DNA of 64,000 nt, from assembly GCA_003313425.1 (NCBI GenBank), contig NHZP01000046.1:287222-351221 (forward strand), read 5' to 3'. The stretch is from Pseudopyrenochaeta lycopersici (taxonomy: Eukaryota > Ascomycota > Dothideomycetes > Pleosporales > Pseudopyrenochaetaceae). The notes under the pieces were generated by a model. That model was not told where the DNA came from, searched no databases, and saw nothing but the letters and a program-made list of their open reading frames with translations. This document shows positions 2,977 through 27,505 of the stretch, one piece after another. Both the position numbers and the translations under genes were made by a program. Position 1 is the stretch's first letter, and every line of letters begins with the position of its first letter.

Positions 2977-3927
2977 TCATAAATCCTTCATGCTGATGTT
3001 GCCGCTGAATACACCAACAACAGCAGCGGAACCTCGTTCGGTCCTCACCTCTCCAATCCGCTGGTTGATCTTGTCCACCACGCTCTCCGGCAGCCCTACC
3101 AGTGCCTTAGAATCCTCCGAGGTTATGACTTTGCCGATCTCTTGGCCGCTCCGTTGAGACCGTACTTGCGAGAACACTACTCCACAAGAGACTTGATTGG
3201 CCTCAAGTAGGCGTGACTGCTCTTCAATCTCCTTGATGGCCAGAGTTCGCTGCGCGCCGCCATCTTCCTCCTCTTCCGGCTCTTCTTGGAGCTCTTGCTT
3301 GCGCCCCTGGGCTTCGTCATGCTGCTTCTTAATGAGGTCAAGATGCTCCTGGATCTTCGTCTCGAGTGTCTGCAGCCGCCTCTTCAATAGTTCACGATCA
3401 ACCTCAGACGTCTTCTCGGATCGTATTTGGGTCATGCTATTGCAGAATTAGTGTGTGCTTTCACAGTGGCTAGAAAAGTCCCCTTACAGCTGAGTGCTCG
3501 TGACGGCAAACTGCACGGTGGCCTCGCACGATTGCAACTGCGTTCTGAACGTACGAATCTTTTCTTTGTTCCACACACCAACCGAGAGGCGATCCCTGAG
3601 CGAAAGCCTTGCAGTGCTGGAATGCTTCGTCCACTTCTTGAGATTCTTGCTGAACTCATCGCAAGCGTCACCGCACTTGTTAACCGCTTCCGCAACACCA
3701 GCTTTCTTCAGGTCCTCTTTAGCCGCAGTCGAAGTGGCTTCATCCGAGATGCTTAGCCGCTCAAGTGCAGCTAGCGGACGCTCTATGTTGGCTAAACTGG
3801 AAGCAACATCTGTCACAATGTCTTTGGCTTCGGTCAGACTGTTAATGAGACTGTGGAGCTGCACAATGCTGGTTGTGGCGAACCCAGTGATCCCAATAGC
3901 CCCGGCTGTGATGCTGAAAGGGTCCAT
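2977..3927 (-). CDS. E1: HeLo-like/PigL_N-type effector with two C-terminal signalling-motif repeats
   Basis: Join of 3488-3927 and 2977-3436 (299 residues). The intron 3437-3487 has donor GTAAGG and acceptor ATAG and keeps phase. Residues 1-145 begin MDPFSITAGAIG and form an all-helical domain typical of the fungal STAND-protein N-terminal family (HeLo-like/PigL_N). Residues ~155-215 are a Glu/Lys/Gln coiled coil. Residues 245-271 and 272-299 are two adjacent 27-residue repeats (QEIGKV...SKALVG and QRIGEV...AAVVG) matching a single copy near the N-terminus of the NLR encoded divergently 0.56 kb away. In known fungal systems a receptor-borne copy templates amyloid folding of the effector copies and activates a membrane-targeting cell-death domain; that role is inferred here. 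It ends five residues before E2 because of an early TGA after MKDL. Confidence 0.85.
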
Positions 3928-4485
3928 GATATGTCTTTTGGTGCGGATCAGGATTGTCTCAGTTATTTTTTCGCAAAAGCAGATGGATGCAGAAAGGAGT
4001 CGCTGAGTTGCTTCAAGTTATTCGTTGTGAACGGACAACCTGAAGTCAAGCGCAACGTCTTCTAACGGAACTTGGCTCACGCGGCTTATTGAGGAGCGTG
4101 GTTGCCTCCATGCGTTAAAGACTTCTCCAGCATGGCTCAGCTGCGGCTGAGAGCCCATAATTTGCGTGCAGAGTACGCCCTGGACGCCATGAGCTGCACG
4201 TGGCGGCCCGTGGCGCTGCGGGGTTGCGGGGGAGTGAAGCTGATAGGCTACGCGCCGCAAGGCAACGAGGTTGAGAACCCTGCCTCAGCCGCTCTTCACT
4301 GCTTGCAGCTGTACGACGGCTTGCACTGACATCGCCAGGTGCATGCTACCGCGATGCCCTACCTTTGCGCAACTCTCGCGACTCATCCCGCAAAAGTCTT
4401 CAGAACAGCGCCTCATGATACGTAGAGCCGCTTTTCCCGTAGCGTTACACGACGAAAATTTGGCGACGCGCGCAACCTAGGGCAA
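3928..4485. promoter_or_regulatory. divergent promoter region between E1 and NLR1
   Basis: This 558-bp gap separates the starts of the divergently transcribed E1 (-) and NLR1 (+) genes. No conserved box was identified with confidence. The placement implies shared upstream sequence for the effector/receptor pair. The equivalent gap in the second cassette is 10281-11163. Confidence 0.45.
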
Positions 4486-7364
4486 ATGTCCGAGGGCACA
4501 TCACACAACCAACAACACATCGGCGAAGTATCCGGAAGCAATGGAGCGCAGGTTGCCGTGGGTATCTTTCACGGAAACGTACAGTTCGGTTGCGCAGGTG
4601 ATCCTCAAAGTTCGTCTAATGCGTTCTTTCCCTCTCCACCACTGTTACCGGCCGCCGCTAACATGGGTACTCGACAGAAGCTTCGGAACAAGCGGCCAGC
4701 GCGTGTCGCAACGCCCTCTTCCTCACCGATCCCCACATCGACCGGGAAAGCCTGATCAGCGCGAAGGGAACGAGAGTCGCTGGTACCTGCGAGTGGATTA
4801 CAAACAATGAGAGCTATCGCGCCTGGCTTAATGGCAGCACGCGCCTTCTGTGGATCTCGGGAGGGCCTGGCAAAGGCAAGACAATGCTGTCTGTCTTCCT
4901 GACGGAGGAGCTCGAGAAGAAGACTGCAGGCAGAGAAGACGCACAACTGTTGTACTACTTCTGCAGCCACCAGGACGAGAAGCGTAACACGGGCGTTGCC
5001 GTGCTTCGCGGACTGGTGCACCAGATTATCACCAAGCGTCTGCAGCTGGTCAAGCACGCGCTGCCGTACTTTGAGACGCCTGAGAGAACACAGCAGACGC
5101 TTTCGTCTTTGGAGACGCTGTGGCTCATCTTCAGCAAGCTGATCGTCGACCCCGGCTTCGGGACGACATTCTGCGTGCTTGACGGGCTTGACGAGTGCGA
5201 AGAGGGCGCGCTTAGGGCGCTCGTGCCGAGGATCGTCAGCCTGTTCGCTCCCCAAGCGACATCGCCCACTGCGAAAGCATTCAGGCTAGCGATCGTTAGC
5301 CGAGACATACCTGGTCTGCAAGGATGTGCGAGAGTGAAGCTGGACCCTGACAACAACGATAAGGTGGCCGGCGACATTGAGCTGTTCATCGCGGCTCGAG
5401 TGGGCGAACTGTCGAGGATTGAGGGTTCCAACGACGATTTCCGGACGGCCGTGCAGGCGACTCTGCTGGCACGCGCTGAGGGGACGTTCTTATGGGTGGG
5501 CTTCGCGATGCACAAGCTGTTGCAGAAGCAGACGTGCAGTCAAGTGCTGGAGGCTCTCGACGCTCTTCCAAGCGGCCTTCCGGCGATATACAGCCGTATG
5601 CTGCTGCAGATTCCATCCGAGCGGAGACAGACGAGCTCCTCGATCTTGCGTTGGGTGACTATGGCTCTGCGCCCTCTGCAGCTGCAAGAGCTGGCGGCTG
5701 CGGTCGGCGTCCAGTCCTCGTCTCCACTCATCACCGTAGAGCAAGCGATCCGCGACGAGATTGCTCTGTGTGGACCTTTTTTGAAGGTACAGGAGCAAGA
5801 AGTCAGCCTCGTCCACCAGTCAGCGCGGGATTACCTGCTACGCAAAAAGCCGGACAATAGTGCGGTTCCAGAGGAGTTTCGGATCAAGCCCGGAAAAGCA
5901 CACCTAGAGCTGGCGCGGGCGTGTTTTGATTGTGTTGCACAGAGCGGCCTGCAACATGGACCTCTAATGCTAGACAAGTGGTCATGCTCTCAAGACTCTC
6001 CGCTGTTGCGGTATGCAGCGCTTCACTGGCCTGAGCATGCAAAGAGCTGTTCGTCACTTGCCGCTGAGCTCTTTGATCCGTCTATGCCCTTTTTTCAAGA
6101 GGAATCTGCCCTGCGAAAATATTGGTGGGCAGCTTACAGCGAAGCGAAGAGTCTATATGGACCTATGCCTCCACCATTACTACATATGGCGTGCTTCTTA
6201 GGAATTGTTCCATGGGTAGAAATAGTACTGATAAAGTATAGCTGGAGACCTTGGCTCTACAAGCATGTGGACAAGAAGGACAATGACGGGCAGACGGCGC
6301 TGCACTTTGCAGCCCGGGGAGGGAATGAGGCAGTGGTGCGGCTACTGCTCAACAGAGGAGCGGACGTCAATGCGAAGGACATTTATGGGAGGACTGCGCT
6401 GCACTTGGCAGCTGAGAGTGGGGACGAGGCAGTGGTGCGGCTGCTGATCAACAGAGGAGCGGATGTCAAGGCGAAGAACAACAACGGGGAAACTGCGCTG
6501 CACCGGGCAGCTGAGAGAGCGAACGGGGCGGTGGTGCGGCTGCTGGTCGACAGTGGAGCGGACGTCAAGGCGAAGGACAACGATGGGGAGACGGTGCTGC
6601 ACTTGGCAGCTTGGGGAGGGAACGATGTAGTGGTGCGGCTGCTGGTCGACACAGGAGCGGACGTCAAGGCGAAGGACAATGATGGGAAGACGGCGCTGCA
6701 CTTGGCAGCTGAGAGTGGGGACGAGGCAGTGGTGCGGCTGCTGATCAGCAGAGGAGTGGACGTCAAGGCGAAGAGCAACGATAGGAAGACGGCGCTGCAC
6801 TTGGCAGCTGAGAGTGGGGACGAGGCAGTGGTGCGGCTGCTGATCAGCAGAGGAGCGGACGTCAAGGCGAATGACATTTATGGGAGGACTGCGCTGCACT
6901 TGGCAGCTGAGAGTGGGGACGAGGCAGTGGTGCGGCTGCTGATCAACAGAGGAGCGGATGTCAAGGCGAAGAACAACAACGGGGAAACTGCGCTGCACCG
7001 GGCAGCTGAGAGAGCGAACGGGGCGGTGGTGCGGCTGCTGGTCGACAGTGGAGCGGACGTCAAGGCGAAGAACAACAGCGGGGAGACGGTGCTGCACTCG
7101 GCAACTTCAGCTTGGAGCGCGAACGAGGCAGTGGTGCGGCTGCTGGTCGATAGAGGAGCTGACCTCAAGGCGAAGGATGACGATGGAGAGACGGTGCTGC
7201 ACTCAGCAGCTTGGAGAGGAAACGAGGCGGTGGTGCGGCTGCTGGTCGACAGAGGAGCTGACGTCAAGGCGAAGAACAACAAGGGGAAGACGGCGCTGCA
7301 CTCGGTAGATCACATGGGAAATAAGCCGCTTGTTCAATTGCTTGAAGCCGCTCTTGCGTCTTAA
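4486..7364 (+). CDS. NLR1: NACHT-ankyrin NOD-like receptor
   Basis: Join of 4486-4609 and 4678-7364 (936 residues). The 68-bp intron has donor GTTCGTCT, a CTAAC branch site and acceptor CGACAG; the same donor and phase occur in NLR2 and NLR3. Residues 9-35 carry the motif shared with E1/E2 (QQHIGEV...AVGIFHGN). The NACHT ATPase follows, with Walker A GGPGKGKT at ~103-110 and Walker B FCVLDGLDE at ~206-214, then a winged-helix/linker region. From ~576 there are 11 ankyrin repeats of 33 residues, extremely similar to one another at DNA level. Expected role: cytosolic STAND sensor in which the ankyrin array binds a ligand, NACHT oligomerises, and the N-terminal motif nucleates the cognate effector, probably E1. 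It is divergent from E1 and appears intact. Confidence 0.9.
6376..7071 (+). repeat. 495-bp (five-repeat) duplication inside the NLR1 ankyrin array
   Basis: Ankyrin repeats 2-3 recur as repeats 7-8. A stretch of about 195 bp starting with ATTTATGGGAGGACTGCGCT at 6381 is repeated without visible change from 6876, an offset of 495 bp, exactly five 99-bp repeat units. This points to a very recent unequal exchange or gene conversion within the array. Confidence 0.85.
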
Positions 7365-7908
7365 TATAGCATCTACTAAAAGTATTGTATGAGATTATCT
7401 AAGTAATCTTCAACACTATCGATTCCGTTCACCGTAGGGAGGCAAACATGCGTACTGCATCACGATGCGAGTGTCTGTGCTGCGACAGTATGTGCACATG
7501 TACCATCCGGCAAGACGAGACTAAGTTTTACAGAGCTTTTGCTCGTCGGCATTGTAAGTAGTAGTCTCACATGTTCTGCTCTTCTTTAGGATAAGGCTAC
7601 GCTTAGCGCGACAAGGACCCCTGCAAGATGAGTAGTTTCTGTTGTGCACATACCGGAAGCCGATTGTGCAAGCGAGTGACTCGCTTGCACAATCGGCTTC
7701 CGGTTTTCTGCATTGCGCAAAAGATTCATCTTACAGGGGCCCTGTCGCCCAAGCGCTGGCCTTGCCAAATCAAGCACAGTGCATGTACAACTACAATCCG
7801 CAGTGCTGAAGAGCAAAAGCTCCCTAATTTCAGTCTCCTTGTTACAAGAAATAGTCACTACTTTAAGGCTTCCGTTAGAGACATCCGTTGGACAAACATC
7901 AACTCAGG
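7365..7908. other. convergent 3' region between NLR1 and NLR2
   Basis: No gene is supported. This gap contains the symmetry centre of the inverted effector/NLR duplication, including the perfect palindrome at 7652-7704 and weaker inverted similarity extending to about 7585 and 7775. Confidence 0.7.
7652..7704. repeat. perfect inverted repeat (26-bp arms, 1-bp centre)
   Basis: The left arm starts ACCGGAAGCCGATTGTGC and ends GCGAGT at 7677. A single G at 7678 follows, then the exact reverse complement to 7704. Imperfect inverted similarity continues outward (CCCCTG.AAGATGA on both sides). A single arm also occurs at 18838-18864 downstream of NLR4, so the sequence is the conserved 3' flank of this NLR type, here joined head to head. 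Confidence 0.95.
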
Positions 7909-10280
7909 TTAAGAGGTGGATACTGCTTTGAGAAGCCGCACCACCGCCTCGTGCCCTTGCTGAGCTGCCCAATGTAGCGCTGTCTTCCCAAATTTGTCCT
8001 TCGCCTTAACGTCCGCTCCGCAGTCAATTAAGGCTCGCCCCACCGCCTCGTGCCCCAAAAAAGCTGCCCAGTGTAGCGCCGTCTGCTCGAGATAGTTCTT
8101 CGCCTTGACGTCCGCTCCGTTGTCCAATAGCAGCCGCATCGCCGTCTCGTTCCCTGCATTAGCTGCGAAGTGCAGCGCCGCCTCGTCACAGTTGTTCTTC
8201 GCCTTGACGTCCGCTCCGCAGTCAATTAAGGCTCGCACCACCGCCTCGTGCCCCAAAAAAGCTGCCCAATGCAGCGCCGTCCCCCCATCATTGTTCTTCG
8301 CTTTGATGTCCGCTCCGTTGCCCACTAGCAGCCGCACCACCGCCTCGTGCCCCGAAAAAGCTGCACAATGCAGCGCCGTCCGCCCATCATTGTCCTTCGC
8401 CTTGATGTCCGCTCCGCTGCCCACTAGCAGCCGTACCACCGCCTCGTGCCCTTGCTGAGCTGCCATCTGCAGCCCCGTCTGCCCATTCTCGTCCTTCTTC
8501 TCCACACGTTTATGGAACTTAAATATCCAAGTCCTCTTGATAAGTATCGCTTTAACCCATGGAACGATCCCTGAATGACAAGCCATATGCAATAATGGTA
8601 CAGACGGAGATTTGTACTGCCATGATTTGGCGTTCATGTAGGTTCTCCACCAATTGTTCCGTAGATCAGAATCTTTTTGGAAGAAGGGCTGTGAGGGCCG
8701 AAAGAGCTCAGCTGCGAGTGTTGAACAGCACCTTGCGTGCTCAGGCCAGTGAAGCACTGCATACTTGAATAGCGGAGACTCTTGTGAGCATAACTCACTA
8801 TTCAAGTCTAGCGGCGCATGTCGCAAGCCGCTCTGCGCAATGCAACCCAAACAAGTCCGTGCTAGTTCTAAGTGTTCTCTCTCCGGTTCGATCCGAAACT
8901 CTTCTAAGACTGCGTTGCTGTCGCGCTCTTTTCGCAGTAAATACTCCCGAGCTGACTGATGTACAAGATCAACTTCTCGCTCCTCCATCTTAAGGAAAGG
9001 CCCACACATAGCAATCTTGTCGCGAATCGCTCGCTCCGTGGTAATCAGAGGAGAAGAGGATTGAATGCATATGGCAGCTGCCAGCTCTTGCAGCAGTAGG
9101 GGGCGGAAGGCCATGGTAACCCAGCGCAAGATCTTGAAGCTAGTTCGTCTATGCTCGCTTGGGATCTGAAGCAACATGCGGCGGTATATCGCAGGAAGGC
9201 CACTTGGAAAGCTTCCAAGAGCCTCTAGAACTTGACTGCATGTCTTCTTCTGCAATAGCTCGTGCATCGCGAAGCCCACCCACAGAAACGTCCCCTCCGC
9301 ACGTGCCAATAGAGCTGTCTGCACAGATGCTCGAAAGTCATCGTTGAACCCCTCGATCTTCGACAGCTCTCCCACTCGGGTGGAGATGAACCGCTCAATG
9401 TCGCCGGCCACCTTATCGTTGCTGTCAGGGTCCAGCTTCACTCTCGCGCATCCCTGCAGACCAGGTATGTCTCGGCTAACGATAGCTAGCGTGAACGTTG
9501 TTGTTGGTGGCGACGAAGCTTGGGGAGTAAGCAGGCGAACAATCTTCGGCACTAGTACTCTCAGCGTACTTTCATCACATTCGTCAAGCCCATCAAGCAC
9601 ACAGAAGGTCGTCCCGAGGCCAGGGTCTACGACCAGCTTGCTGAAGATGAGCCACAGCGTCTCCAGAGACAAAAGTGTCTGCTGTGTTCTCTCCGGCGTT
9701 TCGAAGTACGGCAGCGCGTGCTGGACCAGCTGCGGACGCTTGGTGATAATCTGGTGCACCAGTCCGCGAAGCACAGCAACGCCCGTGTTGCGCTTCTCGT
9801 CCTGGTAGCTGCAGAAGTAGTACACCAGTTGTGCGTCTTCTCTGCCTGCAGTCTTCCTCTCCAGCTCTTCAGTGAGGAAGACGGACATCATCGTCTTCCC
9901 CTTGCCAGGGCCTCCCGAGATCCACAGAAAGCGCGTGTCGCCATTCACCCAGGCGCAGTAGCGCTCATTTTGTGTGATCCACTCGCAAGTGCCCGCGACC
10001 CTTGTCTCTTTTTTGCTTATAAGGCTCTCGCGGTCGACGTGGGGATAGGTGAGGAACAGGGCGTTGCAACACGCCCGGACTCTTTCTTCAAAGGTTTCTA
10101 TTGAACGCCCTTGTCAGCAGCCGTCAACAGAGACGGAGAGGGAAAGAGGTCGTCAGACGAACTTTGGGGATCCTCAGCGCCGAGCTGGCAGTTGCTGAAG
10201 CTGCCTACATAGGAGTGGGAGCGATTTCGCGTGGCTACTCGACCGATGTGCTGTGGGCGGGGCAATGGGTCGCCTAACAT
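7909..10280 (-). CDS. NLR2: NACHT-ankyrin NOD-like receptor
   Basis: Join of 10163-10280 and 7909-10097 (768 residues), intron 65 bp with donor GTTCGTCT and acceptor CAATAG in the same phase as NLR1. The N-terminal motif is QHIGRV...SHSYVGSF, diverged from NLR1 around the glycines. Walker A GGPGKGKT lies at ~101-108 and Walker B FCVLDGLDE about 100 residues later. The NACHT and linker closely parallel NLR1 and NLR3. Six ankyrin repeats (~574-765) end in LLKAVSTS. It is divergent from E2 and convergent with NLR1; E2/NLR2 is the mirror image of E1/NLR1. It appears intact. Expected role: STAND sensor paired with E2. The motif is less like the effector motif than that of NLR1, so pairing is uncertain. 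Confidence 0.9.
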
Positions 10281-11163
10281 GTGGGGTGCGCTTGCCGCTG
10301 GATTGTCGTGTTGGGATAGTCAGATGGTGGATCTACAGTATTCGTCTATCAGAACTGTCTTTCTGGCTATTGCGCCCGCAAGATGAGCTTCAGTCGTGCT
10401 AGAATACAGCGGCGTGAGTCGCGAGAGGATGCGCAGCAGCAGAAGCGGTTAGGGCAGCCTTGTCGTCGCGATGCGTGCGGCTGAGTGGTGATCAAGGCTG
10501 CCATGAGCTGTCTTGCTGGTTGTCGCGCCCGCAGGGTGAGGCCTGAGGTGTGCAGTCGACAGAGAAGCAATGCTGTGGTTATTGCTCAAACTCCTGGGGG
10601 TTGACGTTCAGCTGGATCTTGCGCCACGCTGATTGCGGGGTGGAATCATCAAGCTTGTTGCCTTGCTGCGCACAACTTGCAGTATCAGCTGCCCTTCTCT
10701 GCACAGCGTCATGACCCGGTATGCGGCAACTCCTGATGTCGTGAGCACCAAGCTTCTGTGCGCACCAAACCCCAAGACTCACGCCACCTTTGGTCCCAAT
10801 GAACGCAGCATGTATTAGAGGGGTACGGCGTTAAAGCGCTATAGAGAACAGGATCCGTGGATACGCTGTAGGTCTAGAGCAAGCTTGTCGCCTCAAAGCA
10901 GCGTTTGGTTGCCTTTTCTACCCCGCACATACAGATCGAGCGCTCAGCTAGAGCTGAACGCACCACGAAGCCAAACTCAGCTCGAACCTTGGCATTTGCA
11001 GGCAAACACCCCACCCCTACTTGTCCAGTCTTGCCGGCCCGCATTAAGAGAGCGCTGTCCGCATCTTCCAGGTCGCATCCCACAGTGTGTTTAGTTTCTG
11101 CCTGCCTCCACGGGAAAGAAGACATACACGTTTCTTGAGTCTCAAGTCCAAAGTCTTAAACTC
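10281..11163. promoter_or_regulatory. divergent promoter region between NLR2 and E2
   Basis: An 883-bp gap between the divergent starts of NLR2 (-) and E2 (+). Only short frames without recognisable content occur. It is the counterpart of 3928-4485. Confidence 0.4.
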
Positions 11164-12131
11164 ATGGATCCCTTCAGTATCACAGTCGGTGCTCTTGGCA
11201 TCACCGAGTTTGCCGCATCCAGCATCGTTCAGCTTCGTAATACCATCAATGGCATTGCCGAAGCCAAAGACGTGGTGCAAGATATTGCTTCAAACTTGGA
11301 GGACATAGAGCGTCCGCTGGCCGCGCTTGAACAACTCAGCATTTCGGATAAAGCGACTTCAATTGCGGCAAAAGAAGACCTGAAGAAGGCTGGTGTTGCG
11401 GAAGCCGTCAACAAATGTGGCGATGCTTGTGCCGACTTTACCAAGAACCTCCAGAAGTGGACGAAGCATTCTAGCACTACGAAGCTTTCCCTCAGAGATC
11501 GTTTCTCAGTTGGTGTATGGTATAAAGAAAAGATCCGTACATTTAAGACACAGGTTCAATCCTGCGAGGCCACCGTACAGTTTGCTGTGACAAGCACCCA
11601 GCTGTAAGTGAGCCTTCATATGTCATGCCGGCCAACACATGCTAACTCACCAAAAGGATGATCCAGCTACGGTCCGAAAAGACGTCTGAGGCCGATCGCG
11701 AGAACTTGAAGCAGCAATTACAGATCCTTGAGACGAAGATTCAGGAGCATCTCGATCTCACCAAGAAGCAGCAAGACGAAATTCAAAAGCGCAAACAGGA
11801 GCTTCAGGTAGAGCCAGAGGAGGAAGAAGATGACGGTGCTCAGCGAACCCTAGCCATCAAGGAGGTCGAAGAGCAATCTCGCCTACTAGAGGCCGACCAA
11901 GTCTCCTGTGGAGTTGTGTTCACCCAAGTACGCTCTAAACGAACGGGCCAAGAGATTGGCAACGTCCTAACCTCCCATAACTCTAGGGCTTTGGTAGGGT
12001 TGCCGGAGAGCGTTGTCGGAAAAATCAACCAGCGGATTGGGGAGGTGATAACACAGAACAATTCCACCGCGGTCGTAGGGGTTTTCGACAGCAGGGTCAG
12101 CATGAAAGATCTCTTGCAGAAGGTATCTTAG
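11164..12131 (+). CDS. E2: HeLo-like/PigL_N-type effector with two C-terminal signalling-motif repeats
   Basis: Join of 11164-11603 and 11657-12131 (304 residues). The intron of 53 bp has donor GTAAGT, branch CTAAC and acceptor AAAAG. Exon 1 is 440 bp, exactly as in E1. Domain order matches E1: helical N-terminal domain (MDPFSITVGALG), coiled coil with an EEEEDD acidic stretch near 200-206, and the motif repeats at 245-271 (QEIGNV...SRALVG) and 272-298 (QRIGEV...STAVVG), with a LLQKVS tail that E1 lacks. Second-repeat residues after VVG differ from E1 (FDSR versus FSGN), the region where NLR1 and NLR2 also differ. Likely a cell-death effector controlled by NLR2; inferred. Confidence 0.85.
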
Positions 12132-12846: not shown

Positions 12847-14485
12847 ATGCCCGGCAACGACCTGCGCCTGTTCGCGCTCGACGGCGGCGGAGTGCGCGGC
12901 CTGTCCGCCCTGATGCTGCTTGAGCAGCTCATGGAGGCTGTCGACCCAGACGCGCCGCCCAAGCCGTGCGACTACTTTGACATGATCGGAGGGACAAGCA
13001 CAGGGGGGTGATTACTACTGTTGGCCTTGACGTGCGTGCGAGGTGTACTGACGTACTAGACTGATCGCTGTCATGCTCGGCCGGCTGAGGATGAGCGTGG
13101 CGGACTGCATCACCGCGTACCTGTCGCTCTCTGACCGCGTATTCCAGAAGTCGCGACACCGAGTCACGATCAAAGGCAAGGTGCAGGGACGCTTCGACTC
13201 GGAGCAGCTGGCGCGCTCTGTGAGAGAAGTAGTCACACAGCAAGGGTTACCAGAAGAGGCGCTGCTTAAAGACGACCCTGACGCGGCCTGTAAAGTGTAG
13301 GTCCATCTACTGCTTCTACGAGAGCTTAGCTAACTGCTACAGCTTCGTGTGCGCGACGAGCAGGGAGACTAGCGAGACCGTCTGCCTAACGAGCTACCGC
13401 ACGGCGCGGGGCAACAACGATCTCCTCAACAGCGTAAAGATATGGGAAGCCTGCCGGGCGACGTCGGCGGCGACGTCCTTCTTCGATCCGATCGCTATAG
13501 GTCGCTTTAGCGAAGAGTTTGTGGATGGGGCGACAGGCGCGAACAACCCAGTGCGGGAGGTGTGGGACCAGGCACAGCAGGTGTGGGGGCCAGAGGTGGA
13601 GAGCAAGGTCAAATGCGTGGTGTCGATCGGAACAGGCGCGCCGTCGCTCAAACCGTTCAAGGACGACGTGTTGCACATCGGCGAGACGCTGGTGGCCATC
13701 GCGACAGAGACAGAGCAAACGGCAGAGCGATTCCGGCGCGAGCGGCAGCTGCTGGACCGCACGGGGAGACTCTATCGGTTCAACGTGGTGCGGGGACTAG
13801 AGGACATTGGGCTGGAAGAGGCGAAGAAGGTCAAGGAGATGGCAGCGGCTACACGACGGTATATGGGGTCGCAAGAGGTGCACAAGCGGATGCAGGCATG
13901 CGCGGGCAACGTTGCCGGCAGAGAGTGTTAGTTTTGGTCTATCTACGTTCTTGTGCACGTGTGGCTAAATAGTAGATAGATTTTGGAACGTACCACATCA
14001 ACTTCAGTCTTCACGGCATCCCGAGAGCGAGACATTTCGTCGACAGGCCGGCCGAGATGGCCGCGATCGAGAGGGCGCTGCTTCCTCAGCGGATGCAACC
14101 CCAGCGACAGAAGGTGTCTATCCTGCGTGGTCTCGGCGGAATAGGCAAGACGCAGCTGGCGGTGGAGTTCGCACGACGGCAGCACCGCCGGTTCAGCGCC
14201 GTGTTCTGGCTGGACGGACGGAGCGAGGACAGCATCAAGCGAAGCATGGCGGGTTGCGCCAGAGCTATATCGACGGACTTCATAGAATTGCTCAGTATCA
14301 TATCTCGTATCATATCATGCTGCGATACGGCAAGGTTAGGGGCCATGATGGAATCTACAGTACTATGCGTGCAAAGTCTCAGCACCTTGTCGTTTGCGAT
14401 GCGCGAACATGAACACATCGCAGCAGCCTTGGCATGGTGGAATTACTTGGCACCCGGAACCCTCCGTTCCAACACCGTCATGTGA
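12847..14485 (+). CDS. patatin-like phospholipase / NB-ARC protein, truncated
   Basis: Join of 12847-13007, 13060-13296, 13343-13926 and 13980-14485 (495 residues). All three introns are 46-53 bp and restore the family reading frame. The patatin domain has the oxyanion-hole motif DGGGVRG (12-18), nucleophile elbow GTSTG with Ser51, and catalytic Asp in DGA (Asp194), so it should be catalytically competent. Next is FVDRPAEMAAIERALLP and an NB-ARC P-loop GLGGIGKT (378-385). Family similarity stops abruptly after residue ~422 (about 14263), before Walker B; the last ~70 residues are unrelated and the usual TPR region is missing. In this family the enzyme is thought to be gated by the STAND module, so the truncated form may be unregulated or dead. 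It lies just upstream of NLR3. Confidence 0.8.
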
Positions 14486-14854: not shown

Positions 14855-17341
14855 ATGTCTGGAGGTTCATGGCCCCACCAGCAACACATTGACCAGGTAT
14901 CCGCACAACATGGTTCACAGGCCTATGTAGGCAGCTTCATCAACTGCCAGTTCGGTAGCAATAACGAGCCCCAGAGTTCGTCTGCCAAGCTCTTTCGACT
15001 CTTCCACCACCTCCATGCCGGCCGCTAACATGGGTACTTGACAGATGCCTCAGAACAAGCGGCCAGCGTGTGTCGCAACGCTCTCTTCCTTACCGATCCC
15101 CACGTCGACCGAGAGAGCCTGATCAGCGCGAAGGGGACGAGGGTCGCAGGCACTTGCGAGTGGATTACACACAATGAGAGCTACCGCGCCTGGCTGAACG
15201 GCGATGGCGATGGCAGGAACAATGACAACACGCGCCTGCTGTGGATCTCGGGCGGTCCAGGCAAGGGCAAGACCATGCTGTCCGTCTTCCTGACAGAGGA
15301 GCTGGAGAAGCACGTAACGCGCGCAGACAACGCAGAGCTGGCGTTCTTCTTCTGCAGCGCCCAGGACGAGAAGCGCAACACGGCCGCAGCTGTGCTACGT
15401 GGACTGGTGCACCAGATCATCGCCAAGCGCCCGCAGCTAGTCAAGCACGCGCTGCCGTACTTTGAGACAGTCGAGAGGACACAGCAAACGCTGTCGTCCC
15501 TGGAGACGCTGTGGATCATCTTCAGCAAGCTAGTCGCAGATGCTGAGCTGGGGACGATGATCTGTGTGCTTGACGGGCTTGACGAGTGCGAGGAAGGCAC
15601 GCTGAGGGTGCTGTTACCAAGGCTTGTCAGTCTGCCTGCTGGAGGAGCTCCGTCATCGACAAAGGGCGCGTTCAAGCTAGCGATAGTCAGTCGAGACATT
15701 CCTGGCCTGCAAGGTTGCACGAGGGTAAAGCTGGATCCTGACAACGATGAGAAGGTGGTCGGCGACATCGAGCTGTTCGTGTCTGCCCGAGTCAACGAGC
15801 TGTCGAGGATCGAGGGGTTCAACGATGACTTTCGAGCATCCGTCCAAACGACTCTCCTCAAACGCGCTGAAGGGACGTTCCTGTGGGTGGGCTTCGCGAT
15901 GCACGAGCTGTCGCAGAAGCAGACGTGCAGTGAGATATGGGAAGCTCTGGAAGATATGCCGAGCGGCCTTCCAGCGATATACAGCCGCATGCTGCTGCAG
16001 ATTGCAGCCAAGCAGAGAGGGATGAGCTGTGCGATCTTGTGCTGGGTGACCATGGCTGTTCGCCCCCTGCAGTTGCAAGAGCTGGCTGCTGCGACAGGCG
16101 TCCGGCCTTTCTCCGCTCAGGTGACCATAGAACAAGCGATCCGCGACGCTATTGCTCTGTGCGGGCCTTTGCTGAAAGTACAAGGGCAAGAGGTTAGTCT
16201 TGTCCACCAGTCAGCGCGAGACTATCTGCTGCGCCAAGAGCGCGACAGTGATACAGTGCTGGAGGCGTTCCGGCTTGATTTACAAGGCGCACACCTTGAG
16301 CTGGCGCGACAATGCCTCGATTGCATTGCACAGAGCGCCTTGCAGTATAAGGCCATTGACCTAGATACTAAGCCAGACCCGCAAGAGTCTCCGCTGTTGC
16401 GATATGCGACGCGCCACTGGCCTGAGCACGCAAAGAGCTGTTCCACGCTCGCAGCAAAGCTCTTTGACCCTTCTGGGCTTTTCCTGCAGAAGGAGTCTTC
16501 TTTGCGAGACTACTGGTGGAAGACGTACACTAAACAGGTGAGAGGTCGTAAACGCAGGTCCCCTCCATTGCTACATATGGCGTGTACTCTGGAGATCATA
16601 CCATGGGTAGAAGCGGTACTGGCAAAGAGGAGCTGGAGACCTAGGTTCCACCGACGTGTGAACAACAAGGACCAATATAGGGAGACGGCACTGCACTGGG
16701 CAGCTCTACGAGGGAACGAGGCGGTGGTGCGGCTGCTGGTGGGTAGAGGAGCGGACGTCAAGGCGACGGGCAACAGTGGGGAGACGGTGCTGCACTCAGC
16801 AGCTCTAGGAAGGAACGAGGCGGTGGTGCGGCTGCTGTTAGACAGAGGAGCGGACGTCACGGCGACGGACAACAAGAACATTGGGTATGGGAGGACGGTG
16901 TTGCACTCAGCAGCTCAGGCAGGGAACGAGGCGGTGGTGCGGCTGCTGGTGGATAGAGGAGCGGACGTCAAGGTGAAGAACAATGGTGGGGAGACGGCGC
17001 TGCACTGGGCAGCTCATGAAGGGAACGAGGCGGTGGTGCGGCTGCTGGTGGACAGAGGAGCGGACATTGAGGCGAAGGACAACAATGGGGTGACGGCACT
17101 GCACTGGGCAGCTCTACGAGGGAACGAGGCGGTGGTGCGGCTGCTAGTGGACAGAGGAGCGGACGTTAAGCCGAAGGAAGACCGCGAGGGGACGGTGCAC
17201 TACGATGCCGTGAGAGGGTATGAGGCGGTGGTGCGGCTGCTGGCAGCAGTCCAAAGTCGTGGACCAGACACTGCAGCTCGAGTACCAGAAGGCGTGCGAT
17301 GCGACGCTGCGGGATGGACTGGACCTGGAGCAGGTGTTTGA
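14855..17341 (+). CDS. NLR3: NACHT-ankyrin NOD-like receptor with chimeric 3' end
   Basis: Join of 14855-14975 and 15045-17341 (805 residues), 69-bp intron with the same GTTCGTCT donor as NLR1/NLR2. The N-terminal motif is QHIDQV...SQAYVGSF. Walker A GGPGKGKT lies at ~110-117 and Walker B CVLDGLDE about 100 residues on; six ankyrin repeats start at ~583. The last ankyrin unit runs out at ~17240, where the DNA switches to a copy of the gene seen at 288-1673, read here in the wrong frame, giving an unrelated tail of about 33 residues to the TGA at 17341. No divergent effector gene accompanies it; the truncated patatin gene lies upstream on the same strand. Confidence 0.85.
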
Positions 17342-17756: not shown

Positions 17757-18548
17757 ACGTTGGGCGACGTTAGCTGCTCGCCCTCTGCAGTTGCAAGAGC
17801 TCGCAGCGGCCGTAGGTGTCTAGGTCCTTTCAGCGTGAATGACTGAGGAGCAAGTAGCCCGCGATGCTGTTGCTTTGTGCGGGCCGCTGTTGAAGGTGTA
17901 AGAGCAAGAGGTCAGCCTTGTCCACCAGTCGGCGCGAGACTACCTGCTGCGCAAAGAGCGCGACAGCGACGCAGTGCTAGAGGCGTTCCGGCTTGACTTA
18001 CAAAGCACACACCTGGAGCTGGCACGAAAGTGCCTTGATTGCATCTCACATAGCGACTTGCAATATAGAGCCCTGGATCTAGTTGCTGAGTTAGACTCTC
18101 GAGAGTCTCCGCTGCTGCGATATGCAACACTCTACTGGCCGGATCATGCAAAGAGCTGTTCTGCACTCGCAGCAAAGCTCTTCGACCCTCCTGGGCTTTT
18201 CTTCCAGAAGGACTCTTCTTTGCGCATACACTGGTGGAAGACCTACCATAAGGAGATGAGAGGATATCAACGTCAGCCTCCACCATTACTCCATACGGCG
18301 CGTGCTTTGGAGATCATGCTATGGGTCGATGCGATACTAGCAAAGAGAAGCTGGAGGCCGACGTATCACCGGCGTGTGAACAAGAAGGATGCTGGAGGAG
18401 AGACAGCACTGCACGGCGCAGCTTCGGAGGGGAATGAGACGCTAGTGCGGCTGCTGGTGGACCTCGGAGCGGACGTCAAGGCGACGGACAACGATGAGGC
18501 GGTGGTGCGGCTTGTTAGACAGAGGGGCGGACGTCAAAACAAAGGATA
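17757..18548 (+). pseudogene. NLR4: 5'-truncated NACHT-ankyrin pseudogene
   Basis: Similarity to NLR1/NLR3 starts mid-protein at LRWATLAARPLQLQELAAAVGV, so motif, Walker A and Walker B are absent. In-frame stops include a TAG right after AAAVGV, and a TAA at 17899 where the paralogues have a Gln codon (CAA/CAG). From 17974 the frame is open for 191 codons through the linker region and two partial ankyrin repeats, then degenerates. The stops are consistent with C-to-T changes in CpA context. Confidence 0.9.
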
Positions 18549-18759
18549 AGGATAGGAGAAAGGCACTTTAGCGGAATCCTCTTAACAACATCACGATGTA
18601 GCCAAGCAAACCCGGTTACATAGTCTTAGTGCAAGTATCCAGACTCTTGTTTCTCCTGCTGTGTTCTGTATGTACTGTACGCGCGATACAATATCGTCAT
18701 GATCAGCTCCACACATTAAGGAGCTTTCGCCTTTCCGAGCCTAAATAACGTCTATGTCA

Positions 18760-19849: not shown

Positions 19850-21447
19850 GTGCTGCAGGCGATGCCACGCGGACTAGACCCGCTGTACGACCGGATGATG
19901 GCACAGATCTTGGGGCAGGACGACGTCAGGACAGCAGAGTACTGCAAAGATGTTCTCCGGGCAGTCACTGTCGCCTTCCGGCCCTTGCGTTTGAGAGAAC
20001 TCGTCGTAGTAGCTGGCCTCCCGAGCGACCAGTTCGATCATCCCCAGGCAGTAGCTGACCTAGTGAGTCGCTGCGGCTCGTTTCTTACCATCCGCCAAGA
20101 CACTGTATCCTTCATCCACCTTTCTGCCAAAGACTATCTCACATCAGGTAACGGGCGGCATGTGTTCGATGGCGCAGTAGTAGAGGAGCACGGGCGGGTG
20201 AGCTATCGCCTACTCAATGCGATGCGCAGCTCGCTGCGAAGGGATGTGTGCGGCTTAGAGAAGCCAGGAGCGGAGACGAAGGAGCTGACAAGGCGGGTTG
20301 AGGACAGCATTCTCGGGCAGATCGCATATGCATGCGAGTACTGGGTCGATCATTTGTGCGACTCGAATCTCACGTCTTCCGCAAGGTCTGAAGATGTACT
20401 ACAGGATGGAGGCATTGTTGATCTGTTTCTGCAGGAGAAGTTTCTCTACTGGCTAGAAGCTCTCAGTCTGTGCGAGAGCGTGTCGAAAGGTATTGTCTCT
20501 GTAAAGAAACTCTGGTCGCTGACGCAAGTGTGTTCACTAATTGCTATGGTCGCAGAAACTGTTAAGCTAACAGATGCTAGGGAAGAGAAGAAACAAGCGC
20601 GTTTGCTAAGCTGGTCAAGGATGCGCATCGCTTCGCTATGTATCACAAGAGAGCTATTGAGGCCAGCGCGCTGCAAGCGTATGTATCTGCGCTGCTGTTT
20701 AGCCCAAGGAAGAGTTTAGTAAGGAAGCTTTTTCAGCATGAAGAGCCAGATAACATCACGGTTCTACCCGCTATGGACGACAGCTGGAGCGCGTGCCTGC
20801 AGGCACTCGAGGGCCATAGCCGTTCGGTCACGTCAGTGGCCTTCTCGCACGACTCGGCCCAGCTGGCGTCGGGGTCGGACGACAACACCGTCAAGATCTG
20901 GGATGCGAGCAGCGGGACGTGTCTGCAGACGCTCAAGGGTCATGGCAGCACTGTCACGTCAGTGGCCTTCTCGCACGACTCGGCCCAGCTGGCGTCGGCG
21001 TCGCGGGACAAGACCGTCAGGATCTGGGATGCGAGCAGTGGGGCGTGTCTGCAGACGCTCAAGGGTCATGGCAGCACTGTCACGTCAGTGGCCTTCTCGC
21101 ACGACTCGGCCCAGCTGGCGTCGGCGTCGTGGGACAAGACCGTCAAGATCTGGGATGCGAGCAGCGGGACGTGTCTGCAGACGCTCAAGGGTCATAGCGG
21201 CTCTGTCAACTCAGCTGGTCTCATCTCTATTCTTATGTCGCTGCACTCTGGTAAAACAGTGACAAAACGAAAGCTACCTGTCTGTCAGGAGCCAACGCTT
21301 AGCGCAGATAGCTCCTGGATTTCTGATAATGCCCAAAATCTGGTGTGGCTCCCAACAGAGTATAGACCCGTGTGCTCAGCCGTGTCAGGAAGATGTGTTG
21401 GTCTAGGTACAGGGTCTGGAAAGGTTTGGATATGTCGGTTCAAGTGA
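19850..21447 (+). pseudogene. NLR5: 5'-truncated NACHT-WD40 gene
   Basis: Join of 19850-20527 and 20581-21447. It starts within the C-terminal part of a NACHT-type protein (EVLQAMPRGLDPLYDRMM), so the P-loop half is missing. The intron 20528-20580 (GTGTGT...GCTAG, branch CTAAC) removes an apparent frameshift and sits at the same place as the intron of NLR6 (after LWSL.Q). Three WD40 repeats of 42 residues follow (GHxxxVTSVAFSHDSAQLAS..TVKIWDASSG), nearly identical in DNA. The C-terminus ends with a WLPTEYRP...GSGKVWICRF segment typical of complete family members, so the 3' end is genuine. First Met in frame is at 19862; no promoter or N-terminal exon is apparent. Confidence 0.8.
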
Positions 21448-22919: not shown

Positions 22920-25900
22920 ATGCGCCTTCTGAAGCACAAAGAAGATGGAGAGTTCACTATCATCAGTTTCGATGATGACGAGGTACCTCCTTACGCGATA
23001 CTTTCACATACTTGGGGGGCAGATGAAGAGGAGGTACCTTTGCGGACCTTGAAAACGGCGACGGCAAGGCTAAGCCTGGATACAAGAAGATTCGCTTCTG
23101 CGGAGAACAGGCACGACATGATGGTCTGAAGTACTTCTGGATTGATACATGCTGCATCGATACATCAGACAAGGCTGAGCATTCGTGGGCTATCAGGTCC
23201 ATGTTTCGTTGGTACCAAAACGCAACGAAATGCTATGTATACCTATCAGACGTATCAACAAGGAAGCGGAAAGCTAGCAGTATACTTAGCGAATTTACTT
23301 GGGAGCCTGCTTTCACGTTAAGCCGATGGTTCACTCGTGGTTGGACCCTTCAAGAGCTTCTTGCGTACAGTCGAGTTCTTTTCTAAAGAACGAGAGAAGC
23401 TTGGCGACAAGGTGACACTAAAGCCATTAATCTACAAAATCACCAATATACCGCACGAAGTGCTCGACGGAGCTCCTGTCTCCTGCTTTAGCGTCGACGA
23501 GCGGCTGCGATGGAAAGGCGACAGGGAGACCAAACGTGACGAAGATGCGTGGTATTCATTATCAGGCATCTTTGGTGTTGAGATAGCGCCGGCTTACAGC
23601 GAAGGGGCGGCAAGCGCGTTCAGACGTCTGATGGACGAGATCCACAAAGCGGAAAGATGCATTCAAGACATACGGCATACAGATCCGCGTGACGACAAGA
23701 AGCGTATTGAAGATACAAAGGGTGGGCTACTAGAAGACTCCTACCGCTGGGTTCTCAACAACGCTACTTTCCAACAATGGCAACAAGACCTGCACGGCCG
23801 ACTGTTATGGGTAAAAGGTGATCCTGGTAAAGGCAAGACGATGCTGCTCTGCGGCATCATCGACGAGCTGCACAGCTCGATGCCTAGATCTACCATTCTA
23901 TCGTACTTCTTCTGCCAAGCGACCGACTCGCGCATCAACAGCGCCACGGCCGTGCTACGAGGACTGTTGTACATGCTTGTGGCTCAGCAGCCGTCGCTTG
24001 TATCGCACATCCGCAAGAAGTACGATCACGCAGGCAAAACCTTGTTCGAGGATGCGAATGCCTGGGTAGCCCTGACTGAGATCTTCGTGGACGTGCTTCG
24101 AGACCCCAGCCTGAGCACGACGTACATAATCATTGACGCACTAGATGAGTGCGTCACTGATCTGCCTAAACTGCTTAAATTTGTGGCAGAGCATTCATCT
24201 ACGTCTCACTGCGTCAAATGGATTGTCTCTAGCCGTAATTGGTCAGGCATCGAAGCACAATTAGAGCGGGCCGGGCAAAAAGCAAGATTGAGCCTTGAGC
24301 TAAACGCAGAGTCGGTTGCTGCGGCGGTCGACATCTTCATCCAGCAAAAGGTGGCCCAGTTGGCGCAGGAAAAGCAATACAAAGTAGAGATCCGATCTGC
24401 CGTGCTCCAACACTTAACGTCAAATGCTAACGGTACCTTTCTCTGGGTAGCGTTAGTATGCCAAGACCTCCAAGTGACAGCAAATCGGCACGTGCTGAAG
24501 AAGTTAGCCTTATTCCCACCTAGGCTAGACGATTTGTACGAGCGGATGATGGACCAGATAAGTAAGTCAGACGACGCTGAGACCTGTCGGCAGGTACTGG
24601 CTGCGACTGCAGTCTTGTATCGACCTATTACGATTCCTGAATTAGTCGCGCTCGTCGAGCAGCTTAAAGAATTCGTAGACGATATGCAGTCCGTGCGGGA
24701 GGTTATTAGCCTCTGTGGATCGTTCCTTACTCTGCAAGAAGACACAGTCTACTTTGTGCATCAGTCTGCAAAGGATTTCCTCTTCGTAAAGGCGTCTGGT
24801 AAGGTCTTTCCTAGTGGAACCGAAGCCGCACATCAGGTAATCTTTTCGAAGTCGCTAGAAATTCTGTCCAAGACATTGCACAGGGACATGTACAGTCTAA
24901 ACGCGCTAGGATCTCCTATCGAGAACGTCGAGCGGCCTAATCCGGACCCATTAGCAACATCACGCTATCCATGCGTCTACTGGATTGATCATCTACACGA
25001 CTCAAAACATGAGTCTGGTACGCGTAGTGTTAACGATGTACAAGTTACAGCCGTTCTTGATCAGTTTTTACGGAAGAAGTATCTCTACTGGCTAGAAGGA
25101 CTTAGTCTATGCAAGAGTATAGAAAAGGGTGTAGTATCAATATCTAAACTATGGTCACTTTTGCAGGTACAGCATTCAGAAATTATACGTCTAGATGACG
25201 TGCTACTTCCAGGTGCTAACGTAAGTAGGAGATACGGGGCCAAAATGAACTTACTCGGCTTGTTCAAGACGCACAACGATTCCTCATGTACCACAAAGGG
25301 GCGATCGAGGGTTACCCCCTCCAGACATATGCCTCTGCGCTGCTGTTTAGTCCGAGGGGTAGTTTGATTAGACAGCTGTTTCAGCACGAAGCGCCAGAAG
25401 GAATGACTATTAAGCCAGCTATGAGTGACGGCTGGAGTGCGTGCCTGCAGACGCTCGAGGGCCATAGCGACTCTGTCCACTCAGTGGCCTTCTCGCACAA
25501 CTCGGCCCAGCTGGCGTCGGCGTCGTACGACATGACCGTCAAGATCTGGGATGCAAGCAGCGGCGCGTGCCTGCAGACGCTCGAGGGCCATAGCGACTCT
25601 GTCCACTCAGTGGCCTTCTCGCACAACTCGGCCCAGCTGGCGTCGGCGTCGTACGACATGACCGTCAAGATCTGGGATGCAAGCAGCGGCGCGTGCCTGC
25701 AGACGCTCGAGGGCCATAGCGACTCTGTCCACTCAGTGGCCTTCTCGCACGACTCGGTCCAGCTGGCGTCGACGTCGTACGACAAGACCGTCAAGATCTG
25801 GGATGCGAGCAGCGGCGCGTGCTTGCAGACCCTCGAGGGCCATAGCAGCTCTGTCCACTCAGTGGCCTTCTCGCACGACTCGGCCCAGCTGGCGTGCCAT

Positions 25901-25930
25901 CGGACTGAGCGCGACACCCTTGTTATCTGA
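22920..25930 (+). pseudogene. NLR6: HET-NACHT-WD40 gene (HET-D/HET-E architecture), HET part frameshifted
   Basis: The HET domain begins at MRLLKHKEDGEF with PPYAILSHTWG, FWIDTCCID and FTRGWTLQE motifs, but is broken by frameshifts near 23036 (one base lost in EEV) and near 23366 (about five bases lost in LLAPST). From 23337 the frame is open through the HET tail (FSVDERLRW), Walker A GDPGKGKT, Walker B-like YIIIDALDE, linker helices and KLWSLLQ. An intron at 25167-25228 (GTACAG...GTAG, branch CTAAC) joins this to the WD40 part. The array has two identical 42-residue repeats, a third variant and a partial fourth, cut at ~25895, where the DNA becomes the antisense of another gene. Relatives control heterokaryon incompatibility; this allele looks non-functional as a HET protein. 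Confidence 0.85.
25441..25895 (+). repeat. 126-bp WD40 tandem repeats
   Basis: Units starting GCGTGCCTGCAGACGCTCGA recur every 126 bp. Units 1 and 2 are identical or nearly so, unit 3 carries a few changes (STSYDK for SASYDM), and unit 4 is cut short. Such homogenised arrays are typical of HET-D/E-type receptors. Confidence 0.9.
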
Positions 25931-26953: not shown

Positions 26954-27505
26954 GTGTCCATGCGTTTGTTGACTCAGCAACAACATTGCGCTAACGAGTT
27001 CCACCACATCAACACTAACGCGATTGCTCTCAAAACAACCACCATGACTATTCAACGACCGCCTCACGCAGCTCAAAAGGAGGGCCGTGTCCTTCTTGCG
27101 TCTAAAGCGATTAATTTAAAAAAAATTACAAGTATGCACAAGGCCGCGCAGCTGTATGATGTTCCTCGAACGACTCTCCGAGGCCGCCTTAAAGGCCGCC
27201 TGCCTACCTTAACGATTAACGCACGCAAACGTAAGCTATTACCTACTGAGGAGGAGTCTCTCGTTCAGTGGATACTAGACCTTGATCGACGAGGTTTTCC
27301 GCCTCAGATCATTGACGTACGACGAATGGCAGACTCCCTACTCGCCGCACGCGGCGGGCAGCCTCCACTACCACCTCTTGGCAAGAACTGGGTGTCATGC
27401 TTTATCAACGCGCAGTCAGAGCTTCAGACAAAGTGGAACCGAAAATTTCACTCACAACGCGCGAAATGCGAGGATCCTGTAACAACACGACGTCCAATTT
27501 CCTAA
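26954..27505 (+). pseudogene. Fot1/pogo-type transposase N-terminal fragment
   Basis: The frame encodes a psq-like helix-turn-helix (ITSMHKAAQLYDVPRTTLRG) and a CENP-B/Tc5-type DNA-binding domain (LPTEEESLVQWILDLDRRGF...GKNWVSCFINAQSEL...KWNRK). The likely native start is the Met at 27044. Similarity ends after RAKCEDPV (~27478) and a stop follows at 27505; the DDE catalytic region is missing. It starts 36 bp beyond the divergent PD-(D/E)XK gene start. Confidence 0.85.

Follow-up and report, generated by a model that had tools for sequence, protein, structure and literature searches.

Two effector/receptor cassettes of Pseudopyrenochaeta lycopersici that share a repeated motif, most likely of the HRAM type of amyloid signalling

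The window studied here is a 64,000-nucleotide stretch of the fungus Pseudopyrenochaeta lycopersici (GCA_003313425.1; 62.7 Mb in 188 contigs), namely positions 287222-351221 of contig NHZP01000046.1 (C46). It carries two cassettes, each consisting of a HeLo-like effector (E1 or E2) that ends in two copies of a short motif and of a neighbouring NOD-like receptor (NLR1 or NLR2) that starts with one copy. With a probability of about 0.9, judged from sequence comparison, these cassettes are HRAM-type amyloid signalling systems of the HELLF/FNT1 kind, most likely HRAM2. The splice sites of all gene models were predicted from sequence. Motif copies were scored with a hidden Markov model (HMM) trained on 64 repeats from 32 effectors of other species, with the window proteins excluded, and independent E-values are given as iE. 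The effectors and their repeats are as follows.

2977..3927, minus strand: E1, HeLo-like (PF17111) effector of 299 residues, exons 3927..3488 and 3436..2977, PF17111 E-value 1.8e-21
3088..3150, minus strand: E1 repeat r1, HRAM positions 1-21, residues 243-263, score 36.6, iE 1.4e-9
3007..3069, minus strand: E1 repeat r2, HRAM positions 1-21, residues 270-290, score 41.1, iE 5.7e-11
11164..12131, plus strand: E2, HeLo-like (PF17111) effector of 304 residues, exons 11164..11603 and 11657..12131, PF17111 E-value 1e-20
11943..12005, plus strand: E2 repeat r1, residues 243-263, score 36.0, iE 2.2e-9
12024..12086, plus strand: E2 repeat r2, residues 270-290, score 40.6, iE 8.1e-11

An earlier note on this DNA had described two 27-residue repeats at the ends of E1 and E2 and one copy at the start of NLR1, NLR2 and NLR3, and both descriptions hold. 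The motif glutamine stands at residues 245 and 272 of both effectors, with a spacing of exactly 27 residues and a linker of 6, and is residue 10 of each receptor. The Pfam match to PF17111 stops upstream of the repeats, at residue 204 in E1 and 214 in E2. The gene pairs E1/NLR1 and NLR2/E2 are both divergent, and NLR3 lies beyond the region of the original finding (2977..12131). For the receptors, the last figure in each motif line below is the number of shuffled sequences, among 5000, that score at least as high as the N-terminal piece (32-50 residues) when read with the effector-repeat HMM.

4486..7364, plus strand: NLR1, 929 residues, motif (r0) exon, NACHT/NPHP3_N and ankyrin repeats, exons 4486..4588 and 4678..7364
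7909..10280, minus strand: NLR2, 762 residues, r0 exon, NACHT and ankyrin repeats, exons 10280..10181 and 10097..7909
14855..17341, plus strand: NLR3, 798 residues, r0 exon, NACHT and ankyrin repeats, exons 14855..14954 and 15045..17341
4507..4569, plus strand: NLR1 motif r0, residues 8-28, in its own first exon, 86 shuffles
10197..10259, minus strand: NLR2 motif r0, residues 8-28, 1 shuffle
14876..14938, plus strand: NLR3 motif r0, residues 8-28, 1 shuffle

In all three receptors r0 forms a separate first exon, followed by an intron of 83-90 bases and the NACHT exon, and the NLR2 model requires a GC splice donor. Pfam finds NPHP3_N and ankyrin repeats in each of them, with NACHT above cut-off; the ankyrin region of NLR1 is a 99-base array of 10.3 copies with 83% matches. 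The shuffle test covered six NLRs, including three from other contigs (NLR4, NLR5 and NLR6, described below), for which 0, 36 and 0 shuffles scored as high, so that NLR1 and NLR5, with 86 and 36 in 5000, are the weak cases of the motif match. A six-frame scan of the fetched loci and the window (9583 peptides) with the same HMM recovered the copies of NLR6 (iE 0.014) and NLR4 (iE 0.089); those of NLR1, NLR2, NLR3 and NLR5 were not reached at iE<5, and the NLR5 copy was picked up by a pattern search. The r0 motifs fall into an NLR1/NLR5 type and an NLR3/NLR4/NLR6 type, with NLR2 apart. The r0 of NLR1 shares 7 of 17 residues with r1 and 8 with r2, in E1 and E2 alike, and being equally close to both effectors it lends no support to a receptor private to its neighbour.

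The class of the motif can be read against the printed description of HRAM motifs, in which G19 is a hallmark, positions 5, 8, 10, 16 and 18 are hydrophobic (10 sometimes T) and R or K is preferred at 15; two copies, with linkers mostly of 6-18 residues, occur at the C-terminus of HeLo, HeLo-like or sesA proteins and one in adjacent NLRs (PMC4518210, as far as its text was available). The cassettes have this layout: two C-terminal copies with a linker of 6 on a PF17111 protein, and NLR1 beside E1, NLR2 beside E2 and, on another contig, NLR4 beside a third effector, E3. All four repeats of E1 and E2, like the r0 of NLR1-NLR3, have G19. Among 34 effector repeat pairs, which were picked by a pattern that requires G19 (34/34 by construction) and restricts other positions, so that the counts overstate the fit and only the choice among allowed letters is informative, I5 is found in all 34 of both r1 and r2, Q3 in 31 and 32, and V18 in 33 and 31, with V/I at 8, T at 10, mostly A at 16 and V/I at 18. 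Homologs without two pattern matches were dropped from this set, including P0020, P0029, P0033, P0034, P0038, P0046, P0047 and P0072. In 20 r0 motifs chosen by eye (6 from this genome and 14 from other species), Q3 occurs in 19, I5 and G19 in 20 and V18 in 12; A, T, G or V stands at position 10, and at position 18 there is A in 6 and G in 1. The picture at position 15 is mixed, with R/K in 25/34 of r1 and 5/34 of r2, and R in 3/20 of r0.

Two trends printed for HRAM motifs, opposite charge pairing and a particular r0 composition (PMC4518210, same text), also appear here, with the reservation that the rows come from related proteins and are not independent counts. When r1 and r2 of the 34 proteins are aligned in register, 49 charge pairs are opposite and 3 like, 28 of the 49 being at position 4 and 12 at position 12; out-of-register slides of 1-3 give at best 19 opposite versus 6 like (at +2), and a difference at least as large as the one observed arose in 2 of 2000 position permutations. 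The r0 motifs contain 1.0% D, 0.7% E and 0.7% K, versus 2.7-6.7% in r1/r2, and 8.6% H versus about 1%.

The subfamily residues are given as Q3 for HRAM2, Q18 for HRAM4 and Q16 for HRAM5 (PMC4518210, printed part), and the effector repeats have Q3, while the letters listed for positions 16 and 18 include no Q. Q3 by itself does not single out HRAM2, as HELLF has it too, and the HRAM2 label is taken from printed text rather than from logos or a published repeat set. The naming itself is inconsistent: HELLF shows Q18 when aligned here, a HeLo-like protein of Podospora is HRAM4 in a 2015 text (PMC4518210), and HELLF is HRAM5 in 2021 papers (PMC7885112, PMC7889193), in the parts of these sources that were seen.

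The earlier note had left the motif outside the named classes, as perhaps a new variant. Searches with other profiles and patterns gave no match: PF11558 (the HET-s prion domain) is not matched in E1 or E2 up to E 1 or in their tails up to E 10 (the positive control was not run), Ses_B (PF17046) is not matched in E1 or E2, the PP core G-hydrophobic-Q-hydrophobic-G is absent as a pattern from the E1/E2 tails and the NLR1-NLR3 N-termini, and a Pfam search of the motif gave nothing above cut-off. A new class of amyloid signalling outside HRAM, sigma and PP would be favoured by the missing PF11558 match and by a conserved linker, in which P23, V26, V27 and G28 are nearly invariant among 28 chosen tails, HRAM linkers being described as unconserved in the printed text (PMC4518210). 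However, PF11558 detects just 38 of the 155 HRAM proteins of the defining study (PMC4518210, same text), among PDB profiles only HELLF is matched, and the printed hallmarks are all present apart from R/K15 in r2. On these hallmarks a new class is rejected as very improbable.

The repeats of E1 and E2 align to the HELLF fibril 6EKA with no gap separating r1 from r2. A beta-solenoid with r1 stacked on r2 is a model prediction, to which predicted strands and structural matches of low strength point; it would have two rungs. The shared motif might instead be an adaptor by which receptor and effector bind, with no amyloid templating. Room for such an adaptor is left by AlphaFold2, which models one chain only, and by Foldseek, which gave no significant match for the model of the repeats. 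For the model of exon 2, neither HET-s nor HELLF is among the 50 Foldseek matches listed of 383. An adaptor is nevertheless given a very small chance, slightly below that of a new class. The HET-S/NWD2-type interpretation first proposed for the locus is partly supported: the sharing of the motif, its copy numbers, the kinds of domain and the linkage in other species are shown, and the two-rung fold is predicted. Finally, the repeats could hardly be the ordinary C-terminal sequence of a pigment-cluster protein with no role in signalling, an idea that draws on the Pfam name of PF17111 (PigL_N) and on the many homologs named 'Azaphilone pig...', since PF17111 is the HeLo-like domain in the available text of PMC9815663, its match ends ahead of the repeats, some homologs with PF17111 carry a Ses_B tail instead, and a matching motif is found in the linked NLRs.

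HRAM-type cassettes are not confined to the window. Across the genome, six NLRs bear the motif, one of them damaged in its NACHT region, and there are three effectors; one more effector is left as a relic that ends at an AT-rich stretch of RIP-like character. E3, whose two exons are both open frames, adjoins NLR4 on contig C1. Contig C27 carries NLR5, NLR6 and the relic, which matches effector residues 1-44 only. Past the relic (C27:657435-660566, L019), GC content drops from about 0.52 to 0.21-0.34, the TpA/ApT ratio rises to as much as 2.81 and the CpA index falls to as little as 0.04; DNA mutated by repeat-induced point mutation (RIP) was likely inserted there. The NACHT query matches NLR1-NLR5 nearly end to end and NLR6 in residues 7-85 and 210-354, in different frames, and the NLR6 gene (C27:660664-663900, L042) looks damaged. 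Further NLR fragments of the same clade are found on C12, C70, C75, C42 and C40, and the loci on C12 and C70 showed no motif below iE 5 in the six-frame scan. Weak motif matches at L015 (iE 0.25) and at L026/L028 on C31 (iE 0.16) were not counted.

The C31 locus holds a different sequence related to HeLo-like proteins (C31:329746-333297, L026), close to a NACHT match at C31:329683. Its HRAM-like motif is weak (iE 0.16), the tail of P0034 of Pyrenochaeta has a similar look, and the region is perhaps another HRAM cassette. A decayed effector fragment with five in-frame stops (iE 1.6) lies at C3:2245556-2248795 (L017), in fairly AT-rich surroundings with mildly RIP-like indices.

A search up to E 10 found 97 effector homologs of E1, spanning Dothideomycetes, Leotiomycetes, Eurotiomycetes and Sordariomycetes (one genus looked up per class). 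P0001 is 98% identical to E1, and the closest named homolog, at 84%, is from Pyrenochaeta sp., a genus of Pleosporales. The co-occurrence of receptors and effectors in other genomes, a check suggested with the original observation, was found for 7 of 35 named HRAM-class effector entries, judged by a match in both organism and length of the longest contig with one of the best 120 of 734 NLR homologs: Pyrenophora, Amniculicola, Karstenula, Corynespora, Periconia macrospinosa, Decorospora and Xylaria scruposa. Among these seven, consecutive locus tags suggest neighbouring genes in Pyrenophora only. The r0 scoring covered the 33 of the best 120 NLR homologs that have 90-160 residues before the P-loop; many of the remaining 87 start no earlier than the second exon. 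When scored with a model built on this genome's six r0 motifs, 19 of the 33 were equalled by no more than 1 shuffle in 1000, and with the effector-only model this held for 9.

The same effector lineage is found with different tails. Tails were classed by our own rule, as HRAM-class when the HRAM pattern occurs in the last 85 residues and otherwise as sigma-class. A quick tree built from 70 effectors with the tails removed (42 HRAM-class and 28 sigma-class) requires 2 changes, versus a shuffle mean of 22, although near-identical copies by themselves cluster the labels. Precomputed PF17046 (Ses_B) matches exist for 17 of the 97 homologs, the named ones being from Penicillium, Aspergillus and Talaromyces. 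In a Ses_B scan of seven sigma-class proteins, P0036, P0040 and P0042 were above cut-off, P0048 was below it, and no match was found in P0044, P0050 and P0074. The sigma tail is thus established for some members of Eurotiales, and the tails of P0044, P0050 and P0074 are alike by eye only. Among the open-licence papers listed by a search, we did not meet an exchange of HRAM and sigma tails on HeLo-like effectors, which other work may well have described. E1 groups with Pyrenochaeta (support 95), and the nearest relative of E2 by path is from Leptodophora (85% identity), without strong support; because the tree places them with different relatives, E1 and E2 are probably not a recent tandem copy.

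The window has further genes and gene fragments. A patatin-like phospholipase sequence lies between E2 and NLR3 at 12850-14250 (PF01734 at 13347-13928), followed by a P-loop-like segment, seen by eye and without a Pfam match, that may be what is left of another NLR. The patatin gene was weighed as a second effector and discarded, no motif being found there below iE 5 in the six-frame scan of the window. A fragment at 17974-18549 resembles the part of NLR3 that precedes and includes its first ankyrin repeats and is probably a broken duplicate. Two more NLR-like genes, at 19850-21447 and 23337-25930, contain WD40 arrays whose 126-base units match at 91% and 96%, and the second has a NACHT; such uniform repeats suggest recent homogenisation. 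A Tc5/Psq-type transposase fragment (26954-27502) and a HET-domain protein (PF06985, 51454-52182) are also present.

By analogy with HET-S, HELLF and HELLP, the HRAM cassettes may act as follows. Its ankyrin repeats would let the NLR sense a ligand; the receptor would oligomerise, and the clustered r0 motifs would take up a beta-solenoid amyloid fold. This fold would template an identical one in the effector's r1-r2 tail, and the helical domain at the N-terminus of the HeLo-like protein would then attack the membrane, so that the cell dies. The model of NWD2/HET-S and FNT1/HELLF (PMC7885112, PMC7889193, in the text available) carries over directly, although every step beyond motif sharing, from oligomerisation and templating to membrane targeting and death, is borrowed from those proteins. 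Since five r0 receptors have a complete NACHT match and there are three effectors, several receptors probably feed the same effectors. Branched receptor-effector pathways of this kind are already predicted in the printed text of the same papers, and because the known model also transfers, the system looks like a new example of known HET-s-family signalling and not a new kind of system. A more tentative proposal, which we consider somewhat doubtful, is a rewired, branched HRAM2 network in which at least two r0 subtypes (NLR1/NLR5 and NLR3/NLR4/NLR6) share the three effectors, NLR5 has outlived its local effector, and the effector lineage has swapped an HRAM tail for a sigma tail, the class of receptor thus changing with the amyloid plug.

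HET-S (HRAM1) and HELLF (HRAM5) are the HRAM systems whose function and structure are described as characterised (PMC7889193, PMC7885112, parts seen). The locus points to a conserved, probably HRAM2 system and offers a place to examine fold and cross-seeding barriers. With one effector lineage bearing either HRAM or sigma tails, the rewiring of receptors and effectors can also be put to the test. As in HELLF/FNT1 of Podospora anserina (PMC7885112, PMC7889193, available text), a HeLo-like effector with two C-terminal repeats adjoins an NLR with one N-terminal copy, and Q stands at position 3; unlike HELLF, which has Q18, the repeats here have V or I18, and NACHT and ankyrin repeats replace the NB-ARC and TPR of FNT1. 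Compared with HET-S/NWD2 of the same species (HRAM1), the copy-number rule, the divergent gene pairing (PMC3321046, text in part) and the predicted fold are similar, but the effector is HeLo-like instead of HeLo, position 3 is Q and not N, ankyrin repeats stand in place of WD repeats, and PF11558 is not matched. The sigma (SesA/SesB/Het-eN) system has a NACHT/ankyrin NLR in its original locus (PMC3321046, same portion), and some proteins of Penicillium and Talaromyces that belong to the same HeLo-like effector lineage end in a Ses_B tail; unlike these, E1 and E2 lack a Ses_B match and carry the doubled motif. With HRAM2, exemplified by W6Q0M1/W6PZN6 of Penicillium roqueforti (PMC5485727, printed part), the system shares Q3, no Q16 or Q18, G19, and two effector copies with one NLR copy, a match made from printed text only.
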